The notes under the pieces: generated by a model
Told to the model about the DNA's origin: nothing
What the model saw: the letters and a program-made list of their open reading frames with translations, nothing else
The model's database searches: none
Made by a program: the position numbers and the translations under genes
Assembly: GCA_030669485.1 (NCBI GenBank)
Contig: DAOVDL010000039.1
Span: forward strand, 1 to 5,956
Source: Candidatus Bathyarchaeota archaeon
GTDB taxonomy: Archaea; Thermoproteota; Bathyarchaeia; Hecatellales; Hecatellaceae
Direction of reading: 5' to 3'
Length of the DNA: 5,956 nucleotides
Shown here: positions 796 to 5,956 of the stretch, in pieces
How positions within the stretch are numbered: position 1 is the first letter of the stretch
Layout of the letters: each line of letters begins with the position of its first letter

Positions 796-1020
796 ATGTT
801 TCATAGGAATTATGAAAGGAAACTTCAAGATAGAATCAGACGATTAGAAAAGGAGAATTCCGACTTGAACAAGATTGCAAAATTGGAGAAAGCTTTTTTA
901 ATAGCAATGGATCTGTTAATGAAAAATATTATTAATAATCACAATGCTAGGGTGTTTTCATCATTAAAGAACCGCGCGCGCTGGGTTAGTGAGAAGCTCA
1001 ACGATTCCATTCATTTATAA
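796..1020 (+). CDS. Small charged, coiled-coil-like protein, unknown function
   Basis: Seventy-four codons from ATG 796 to TAA 1018-1020. The N-terminal half (residues about 6-45) is rich in K, E, R and L with heptad-like hydrophobic spacing, including KLQDRIRRLEKENSDLNKI and then LEKAFLIAMDLLMKNI, consistent with one long helix that could form a coiled coil. The rest is basic and unremarkable. I do not recognise a family. There is no clear ribosome binding site. The 3' end overlaps the 3' end of the minus-strand Hsp20-like gene by 23 bp (convergent), and the frame runs through a CG-alternating tract at 973-981. AT-rich third positions resemble those of the genes at the right end of the window rather than the neighbouring operon. 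It could be a real small gene or a chance frame. Confidence 0.4.
   Translation: MFHRNYERKLQDRIRRLEKENSDLNKIAKLEKAFLIAMDLLMKNIINNHNARVFSSLKNRARWVSEKLNDSIHL
974..983 (+). repeat. Dispersed 10-mer gcgcgcgctg, copy 1
   Basis: A CG-alternating tract (973-981) ends in ctg, giving the 10-mer gcgcgcgctg. It lies 15 bp past the minus-strand stop of the Hsp20-like gene and inside the end of the small plus-strand ORF. The same 10-mer recurs at 4416-4425 and 5213-5222 in the same orientation. Function unknown. Confidence 0.5.
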
Positions 1021-1477
1021 GCTTCTTGAAGCCTCTAGACCGCTTTAGCTTTTGAAGCCTCACATGTAGCACGCCGTTAATATACGACTTGTCTTGGAGT
1101 TCAACCTCTTTAGGTACTTGTACTCTTCGCTCGAAGTTGCCGCCGCCCCTTATCTCCAAGACGCCTTTGCGGAGTCTGACTTTAACCTCTTCAGCCGGTC
1201 CAGGCACCTTGGCTATGAGGGTCACGCCTTCTCCGTCGTCGATGAGGTCGTAGAACCACTCCACTTCACCCGTGGGGTAGGCTTTTTCTTCCCTAAAGAT
1301 TTTCTTTATCTCCTTCAGCCAGTAGATCAGCGTTGCCACTGCGACGGCTCCAAGAACCATCCCCAGGATGCCTCCCTTAACTTTGAAGAGTAAGATTAGG
1401 AGTAAAGCCACTACGGCTATGCTTATTATCGACAGTATGTTTAAGGGTTCTTCAGGGTTCTTCCGCTTCCCTTTCAT
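998..1477 (-). CDS. Membrane-anchored Hsp20/alpha-crystallin-like protein
   Basis: A 159-residue protein. The N-terminus is basic (MKGKRKNPEE), followed by two hydrophobic helices (about 13-31 and 36-53) joined by a short KVKGG turn, then a basic amphipathic linker (55-63). This predicts both termini in the cytoplasm. Residues about 72-143 form an Hsp20/CS-type beta sandwich: EWFYDLIDDGEGVTLIAKVPG, the VKVRLRKGVLEIRG strand pair, ERRVQVPKEV, and the characteristic YINGVLHVRL near the end. The family's A-x-x-x-N-G-V-L signature is present as SYINGVLHV. Small heat-shock proteins hold unfolding clients, but a membrane-tethered version suggests a dedicated membrane client. The gene starts 17 nt after the UPF0182 stop on the same strand, with gagaggtg as ribosome binding site, so the two are almost certainly one operon. 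It ends with TGA. The fold is confident; the client is inference. Confidence 0.88.
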   Translation of the reverse strand: MKGKRKNPEEPLNILSIISIAVVALLLILLFKVKGGILGMVLGAVAVATLIYWLKEIKKIFREEKAYPTGEVEWFYDLIDDGEGVTLIAKVPGPAEEVKVRLRKGVLEIRGGGNFERRVQVPKEVELQDKSYINGVLHVRLQKLKRSRGFKKLINEWNR

Positions 1478-4445: not shown

Positions 4446-5138
4446 TTATCGCCCGAATTTTCTTCTTTGGGTATGGAACCAGGTCAGAGCGGCTTCCCAG
4501 TCTTCCTCTGTGCATTCTGGAAATAACTTTTTTATGAAATAAAGTTCAGAATGCTGTGCTTGAACGCTTAGAAAATCGGATAATCTTTGATAATGGCATG
4601 TTCTTATGATTAAATCGGGTTTCTCTTTTATCATTAGGAGAGATTCTATTTTTAAAGGGGTTAATTTTCTGGCAGCCTTCAAACAAGCGTTCAAAAATTC
4701 GTGCTGGGCGCTCTATGCCATTAAAACCTTAATGCAATATTTCGTGTATGCTTTGGTGGCCTCAGTTAGTTGGTTCATCACTTCTTTGAGGGAGGCGGGA
4801 AGTGTGTCTGGTTGGGTGGAGTAGAATTGAAACCTGACCTGCTTTCGATGAGTATCTGGGTTCAAATATTTCCTAAACTCTTCCTGATAAACAGTAAACA
4901 ATTCTTCAAGCTCATCTCTGGACCTTCTAAGGTTGCTCTCACTTAAAGCGTAAACGATTATAGTTGAAACATCCTTTTTGGAACAGAAATCTAGGAATTT
5001 CCTTAGCGTTTCTGCGCCTTTCCGGAACCCTTCAATTCTGGGGATACCTTGTTTTTTAGCGTATCTACGATTGCCGTCTGGAATAAGTCCTATAATCACG
5101 ACCAAACAACCCGCACGTGCGCATTCCTTAATATTCAT
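4446..5138 (-). CDS. uppS: cis-Prenyltransferase (UppS/DHDDS family) interrupted by one in-frame TAG
   Basis: The family condenses isopentenyl diphosphates onto an allylic primer to make the polyprenyl (dolichyl) carrier for surface glycans. The frame is continuous for 230 residues from ATG 5138 to TAA 4446, except for TAG at codon 142. N-half: LIPDGNRRYAKKQG with the Mg/diphosphate Asp (D21), GFRKGAE (37-43), VYALSESNLRRS (62-73). C-half: DLIIRT...RLSDFL with R179, R185, S187 and E198, spaced exactly as R194, R200, S202 and E213 of E. coli UppS, then ELYF and RRKFG at the end. Each half alone lacks essential residues. TAG falls where the family has Tyr of YGGR (here LMA-TAG-SAQHEF). Also unusual: F38 replaces the conserved His of GHxxG, and CHY replaces GGE after RT. 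The in-frame TTG at 5147 is an alternative start. It could be a fresh pseudogene, a sequencing error or a recoded gene. Confidence 0.85.
4713..4715 (-). other. In-frame amber codon inside the cis-prenyltransferase
   Basis: Minus-strand codons around it read AAG GTT TTA ATG GCA TAG AGC GCC CAG CAC GAA TTT. Homology continues in the same frame on both sides with no insertion or deletion. TAT or TAC (Tyr, the family consensus) differs from TAG by one base. No second stop and no frameshift is present in the other 229 codons. Confidence 0.85.
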
Positions 5139-5157
5139 TTCTCCCAATATGCTTACT

Positions 5158-5222: not shown

Positions 5223-5294
5223 AATGCCTGAAGTAAAACTTATTCCTGCAACCAAGTGCACGCGAGAACTCTTGATGCCGCAATTGCTCACTAA

Positions 5295-5302
5295 TTTATT
5301 AA
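5295..5302 (+). promoter_or_regulatory. TATA-like box for the ATP-cone nuclease gene
   Basis: tttattaa, centred near 5298, predicts a transcription start around 5324. That gives a leader of about 35 nt carrying the AGGAGA before TTG 5359. The arrangement is internally consistent and argues that the ATGs at 5224, 5275 and 5305 lie upstream of the message or are not used. Confidence 0.4.
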
Positions 5303-5344
5303 GAATGTCGAAAGACTCCATCAACGGGGGATCTGTTAGAGAAC

Positions 5345-5350
5345 AGGAGA
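5345..5350 (+). promoter_or_regulatory. Ribosome binding site that decides the TTG 5359 start
   Basis: aggaga ends 8 bases before TTG 5359, ideal Shine-Dalgarno spacing. None of the upstream in-frame ATGs (5224, 5275, 5305) has a comparable site. Starting here puts the conserved ATP-cone motif VIKFDGT at residue 6, the usual place for this domain. Confidence 0.55.
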
Positions 5351-5358
5351 AAGGCGAC

Positions 5359-5956
5359 TTGTCTGAAATCCAAGTTATTAAGTTTGATGGAACGAGGCAA
5401 CTATTCGATAAAGAAAAAATTGTTAACACTTGCATAAGGATGGGCGCAGAAAAAGAAGCCTCCGAGTTGGTAGCAGAGAAAATTAAGAAGAGGGCATATG
5501 ACGGTATACCGACCAAGAAAATCTTACAAATGATCTTCCGTTATCTAAAAAATTATCATCCTAAACTCAAACATCAAATTGACCTAAGAAAAGCCATCAG
5601 CCTATTGCGATCGCAACCCGATTTTGAACAGTTTGTACGTCTCATACTTCAGGAACAAGGCTACACGGTAACTTCTAATCAAATCATAAGAGGGAAATGT
5701 GTAGAACATGAAATAGATGGAGTCGCTAGAAAAGGCGATGAAACCCTTATGGTGGAGATTAAGCATCACTACAACCATCACACCTACACCGGTCTTGATC
5801 CCTCTCGCATTGCTTGGGCAACACTCGAAGACTTAACTGAAGGCTATAAACTGGGCTTGAATTCTGAGAATTTCACCGGGGCGATGATAGTTTGTAACAC
5901 AAAGTTTTCTCGACATGCAAAACAGTACGCCGAATGCAGAGGCCTGTTACAGATAG
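5359..5956 (+). CDS. ATP-cone domain fused to PD-(D/E)XK (Mrr-like) endonuclease, 3' partial
   Basis: The frame is open to the window edge (199 complete codons from TTG 5359). Residues about 4-80 are an ATP-cone: VIKFDGTRQLFDKEKIV, then CIRMGA, the helix ASELVAEKI, and YDGIPTKKILQMI. This nucleotide-binding module is the allosteric sensor of ribonucleotide reductase and NrdR. Residues about 85-199 are a restriction-endonuclease-like fold: DFEQFVRLILQEQGY (E90), then HEIDGVA (D120) and MVEIKHH (E133-x-K135), the PD-(D/E)XK catalytic set, followed by a His-rich loop and the core strand GAMIVCNTKFS. The product is probably a nuclease gated by ATP or dATP; substrate unknown, and a defence or repair role is inference. 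Its C-terminus is missing. The frame extends upstream to ATG 5224 (right after a TGA), with ATGs at 5275 and 5305, but TTG 5359 has the best ribosome binding site. It is divergent from the prenyltransferase. Confidence 0.8.
   Translation, partial: MSEIQVIKFDGTRQLFDKEKIVNTCIRMGAEKEASELVAEKIKKRAYDGIPTKKILQMIFRYLKNYHPKLKHQIDLRKAISLLRSQPDFEQFVRLILQEQGYTVTSNQIIRGKCVEHEIDGVARKGDETLMVEIKHHYNHHTYTGLDPSRIAWATLEDLTEGYKLGLNSENFTGAMIVCNTKFSRHAKQYAECRGLLQI

Follow-up and report, generated by a model that had tools for sequence, protein, structure and literature searches.

Genes and features of the window

The window (the whole stretch of DNA analysed, 5956 bp) carries on its minus strand a cis-prenyltransferase gene that is interrupted by a single TAG. 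Translation of the minus strand from 5138 to 4446 gave 230 codons with one internal stop and a terminal TAA; codons and residues are numbered here from ATG 5138. The features of the gene are listed in Table 1.

Table 1. Features of the interrupted cis-prenyltransferase gene and their positions in the window.
Feature	Position	Strand	Remarks
cis-Prenyltransferase (PF01255) gene, W-S-A-Q subfamily, one TAG inside	4446–5099	minus	probable GTG start to terminal TAA
Possible 13-codon upstream extension from ATG 5138	5100–5138	minus	among aligned close homologues, P0001 alone has it
In-frame TAG, codon 142 from ATG 5138	4713–4715	minus	Trp in 19/19 close homologues; TGG in L001–L004
Open N-terminal part with IPDGNRR and Asn69	4716–5147	minus	PF01255 positions 1–120 of 219
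C-terminal remnant, 82 residues from TTG, with R-x5-R-x-S and Glu198	4446–4694	minus	PF01255 positions 147–219 of 219
TGC, Cys181	4596–4598	minus	Gly in 19/19 close homologues (alignment)
CAT, His196	4551–4553	minus	Tyr in 19/19 close homologues (alignment)

A frame on the plus strand at 5224–5956, divergent from the prenyltransferase gene, joins an ATP-cone (PF03477) to a Mrr-type restriction endonuclease domain (PF04471) and runs off the end of the window. A hydrophobic stretch lies at the N-terminus of the frame at 998–1477 (minus strand), whose HSP20 match of 19.6 bits falls short of the cut-off of 20.8. The product of the neighbouring UPF0182 gene shares 99% identity with one protein and up to 67% with Bathyarchaeia proteins; one Thermoproteota record lies at the same level as the Bathyarchaeia matches, and 67% is the maximum in the class of G001 (a Bathyarchaeota record). 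With moderate confidence, these matches put the host within the Bathyarchaeia or close to them. Neighbours were compared by eye with the orthologous loci L001–L004, covering all frames of at least 70 residues in L001 and, in parts of L002–L004, frames of at least 110 residues; none of the frames listed resembled the UPF0182 or ATP-cone neighbours. Two frames that resemble each other, of 127 and 128 residues, were seen by eye near the divergent prenyltransferase in L001 (1179–1562, minus strand) and L002 (1685–2071, plus strand), and no counterpart was noticed in the window. Among viral contigs, two stretches matched a pattern, neither of which encodes a relative.

Family membership and start codon

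Each half of the frame matched PF01255 separately by hmmscan, the N-terminal half with an E value of 2.4e-25 and the C-terminal half with 5.2e-17. The read-through frame was 94% identical, without an indel, to the intact 230-residue protein P0001, the nearest of 1376 homologues found at E values up to 0.001 among 1547 candidates. Column counts given below refer to the best 120 of these 1376 homologues, that is, the 19 closest (P0001–P0019) and 101 more distant ones. The catalytic aspartate of the IPDGNRR motif (D21) is present in the window, in 17 of the 19 close homologues (the other two lack the stretch) and in all 101 distant homologues listed; Asn69 is kept as well. The R179-x5-R185-x-S187 motif and E198 are present at the family spacing, but downstream of the TAG. 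The original prediction of a full-length cis-prenyltransferase frame with a single in-frame TAG, and with key residues at family spacing on either side of it, was thereby upheld. The frame is not the uninterrupted one of a cis-prenyltransferase, being broken at 4715–4713; the interrupted frame is real, far beyond chance.

Judged by the alignment, GTG 5099–5097 rather than ATG 5138 is probably the start codon. The start is aligned with this GTG in 15 of the 18 proteins P0002–P0019, two of the others beginning later and one earlier, whereas P0001 was called from the upstream ATG, unlike most close homologues.

With key residues kept in both parts, the halves might be made separately and assemble into an enzyme. 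This is hardly credible: between the TAG and ATG 169 the only restarts are the TTG codons 149 and 153, with no ATG or GTG, and the intact relatives are undivided, each of the 19 closest among those listed having at least 200 residues.

The codon replaced by the TAG

The stop had been placed at the conserved Tyr of the YGGR motif. The column is correct: in an alignment with a solved UppS (3ugs), the Trp of P0001 faces the Tyr of YGAR. The residue is a different one, the motif of this subfamily being W-S-A-Q instead of Y-G-G-R, with Trp in all of the 19 closest homologues and TGG in all four orthologues read as DNA (L001–L004). Of the 101 more distant homologues listed, 100 have Tyr and one has Trp, and an aromatic residue occupies this column in 120 of the 120 listed. 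Since the subfamily has Trp rather than Tyr, the earlier expectation that reads might reveal TAT or TAC was aimed at the wrong codon. The TAG is one base step from the TGG of the intact relatives, as in a nonsense pseudogene.

An assembly or sequencing error in a gene that is really intact would fit this single base, as well as the probable origin of the window as a metagenome contig and the intactness of the 94% identical P0001. Such an error is nevertheless unlikely. Apart from the stop, 13 residues distinguish the window from P0001, two of them at invariant columns, which points to another strain, and the fragment P0243 (protein sequence only) seems to show a break in a second contig, one that likewise has Cys181.

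Sibling fragment P0243

A search with the C-terminal half returned four short proteins, among them P0243, which has 51 residues and is encoded on a 2516-base contig (one contig, 2 member sequences). It is identical to window residues 169–219 except for Tyr196; Cys181 is common to P0243 and the window and is absent from P0001. P0243 starts at Met169, the first in-frame ATG past the window TAG, where a gene caller would begin if the frame were broken upstream. Since a contig of 2516 bases is too long to truncate the gene on both sides, the P0243 frame is probably broken either upstream of residue 169 or right after residue 219. On the simplest reading of the protein sequence, its contig would carry the same stop and end near residue 219. 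If this reading holds, P0243 makes a one-off assembly error less likely, and His196 would have arisen after the split from the P0243 sibling. The other three short proteins keep the C-terminus and may have been cut by contig ends.

Further changes and tests of relaxed constraint

At the columns of C181 and H196, Cys and His were never found among the 101 distant homologues listed. Family-unique residues were counted from residue 18 onward, at those columns that the window has and in which at least 15 other members are represented. The window has four such residues, three of which (the stop, C181 and H196) lie at otherwise invariant columns; P0001–P0018 jointly have 129, 32 of them at invariant columns. 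This excess (3 of 4 versus 32 of 129) gave a one-sided Fisher value of 0.056, and of 0.16 without the stop. Unique residues never seen in 102 distant aligned homologues made up two of three in the window, with the stop left out, versus 12 of 129 (Fisher 0.030). The intact members P0011 and P0017 carry more such unique changes than the window does. Of the changes clearly derived in the window since the split from P0001, three of five fall at invariant columns (58 of 217 columns), for which random placement gave 0.12, or 0.20 and 0.28 when one or two ambiguous derived changes were added. The extra changes at invariant columns are suggestive of relaxed constraint, not strong evidence for it.

Comparison of the window with L001 gave a dN/dS of 0.10 at a dS of 1.13. 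Together with an open frame free of frameshifts, this indicates that selection acted on the gene until very recently and that any decay is recent. The original description of a gene in which only one of 230 codons is affected was right in that there is no frameshift, but may understate the damage, as C181 and H196 also lie at invariant columns.

The stop is one base from a Trp codon, and natural amber suppression or near-cognate read-through by tRNA-Trp might give some full-length protein. C181 and H196 suggest that such a product is not under selection, and this explanation is regarded as extremely unlikely.

Distribution of the paralogue and relation to known cis-prenyltransferases

At E values up to 1e-40, the divergent paralogue was found in one of 256 genomes in the class of G001, in one of 150 genomes sampled from the larger class to which G003 (a Ca. 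Methylarchaceae record) belongs and in two of 27 genomes in the class of G002 (a Hadesarchaea record), the positives in the three surveys being the same genomes through which the paralogue had been found. All four carrier genomes have a canonical second cis-prenyltransferase, which scored 266–286 bits versus 152–166 bits for the divergent copy. Being rare and patchy, the paralogue is probably dispensable.

Polyprenyl (undecaprenyl) diphosphate synthases (PF01255/TIGR00055) are the nearest known system: P0001 passes TIGR00055 with 135.5 bits (cut-off 109.55), and the window keeps D21, Asn69, R-x5-R-x-S and Glu198. It differs from them in the TAG, and its subfamily in having W-S-A-Q for Y-G-G-R, Phe38, and KFG or NFG for RXG. 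Phe replaces the usual His at position 38 in 18 of the 19 close homologues (P0001–P0019). RXG is described in a passage of PMC8131916 as the C-terminal motif of homodimer-type cis-prenyltransferases; the window has KFG at this place, and P0001–P0019 have KFG (16) or NFG (3), as read by eye. The missing RXG lowers the case for a homodimer-type polyprenyl synthase, as far as can be judged by motif, and leaves membership of the PF01255 family untouched. With Phe38 and KFG/NFG, the W-S-A-Q subfamily may have a different action or partner. The role in lipid-carrier synthesis assigned to the gene by the original prediction is a family-level guess for the W-S-A-Q paralogue.

A partial parallel is MM_0014 of Methanosarcina mazei, according to the same passage (PMC8131916) likewise an additional paralogue in an archaeon whose other copies presumably make the carrier lipid, and one that departs from the RXG of the homodimer-type enzymes as the window subfamily does. 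The resemblance is distant only, MM_0014 ranking last among the 35 matched sequences of solved structure.

Pyrrolysine and the TAG codon

Decoding of the TAG as pyrrolysine (Pyl) would place this residue at an aromatic column near the active-site region. As Pyl genes occur in related Bathyarchaeia, recoding cannot be dismissed on taxonomy alone. PylS and PylB lie side by side in G003 (L013, L021; G003:C52), the genome of the paralogue carrier Ca. Methylarchaceae HK01M, and PylS scored above its curated cut-off in three of the 256 genomes in the class of G001 (L059, L060 and L061). Near PylS, ARAGORN found a tRNA-Pyl with a CTA anticodon at two of these three loci (L059 and L061) and none in L060; its scans of two G003 loci gave no tRNA-Pyl, and that of the window no tRNA. 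The relevant passages report PylSBCD in representatives of the Bathyarchaeia (PMC9723677), mention Pyl in a Ca. Bathyarchaeota methanogen and regard an mRNA motif as probably unnecessary for Pyl insertion (both PMC9499178). Culexarchaeia are given as lacking pylSBCD in a passage of PMC9723716, which is not relevant to the carriers.

Against these points, the orthologue in G003 (L003) has TGG although its genome has PylS and PylB, this being one such orthologue only. PylS and PylB were above cut-off in none of the other three carrier genomes, which are drafts and may be incomplete. Among the 25 genomes of the class of G001 that are close by their UPF0182 protein, one belongs to the three PylS-positive genomes. 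The RNA following the TAG was no more stable than shuffled sequences (z = -0.13), though no structure is required. C181, H196 and P0243 point to decay, and Pyl in place of a nearly invariant aromatic residue in one lineage, with other invariant residues changed as well, would be an unexpected pattern.

Methylamine methyltransferases are an example of pyrrolysine-encoded proteins. The window gene resembles such proteins in having an in-frame TAG within a conserved frame, and differs from them in that its orthologues have Trp and no TAG. The authors know of no precedent for pyrrolysine in the cis-prenyltransferase enzyme class. The literature search yielded nothing on pyrrolysine in Methylarchaeales and, among the matches listed, no title on an archaeal cis-prenyltransferase with a premature stop codon. 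The UPF0182 frame of G228 was considered as a parallel case of an in-frame TAG and was rejected: it is an open frame of 944 residues with TAGs at its borders.

The suggestion that the amber codon is translated, by pyrrolysine or by tRNA suppression, is not supported by the comparison: no close homologue aligned at the codon has TAG, the column being Trp in 19 of 19 and TGG in 4 of 4, the residue is aromatic in all 120 homologues listed, and further invariant residues are changed. Pyrrolysine at this codon is accordingly rated as very unlikely.

Interpretation

The locus is best explained as an accessory, divergent cis-prenyltransferase paralogue that has recently lost its function through a nonsense mutation, either a pseudogene or a segregating null allele, in an uncultured archaeon that is probably a member of the Bathyarchaeia or of a lineage close by; this reading is drawn from comparative sequence data and is given a probability of about 0.87. 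The stop would have arisen by a change from TGG to TAG where the subfamily has Trp, and translation from GTG 5099 would end after about 128 residues. The C-terminal arginines, serine and glutamate of cis-prenyltransferases serve in substrate binding; the truncated product would be without them and would probably not be a working enzyme. The source genome presumably also has a canonical cis-prenyltransferase, the TAG would go undecoded in the source archaeon, and the changes to C181 and H196 may reflect lost selection. A very recent nonsense mutation was one of the two possibilities originally offered, and it agrees with the TGG of the relatives one step away. The otherwise open frame and the dN/dS of 0.10 count against decay in so far as they confine it to very recent times.

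Most likely, the case is one of ordinary gene decay, and the genetic code is not put to any new use. Were the codon translated, pyrrolysine would occur beyond methylamine metabolism, in an enzyme of isoprenoid synthesis. As a caution for lineages that bear Pyl genes, a lone in-frame TAG is no evidence of recoding unless orthologues share the TAG.
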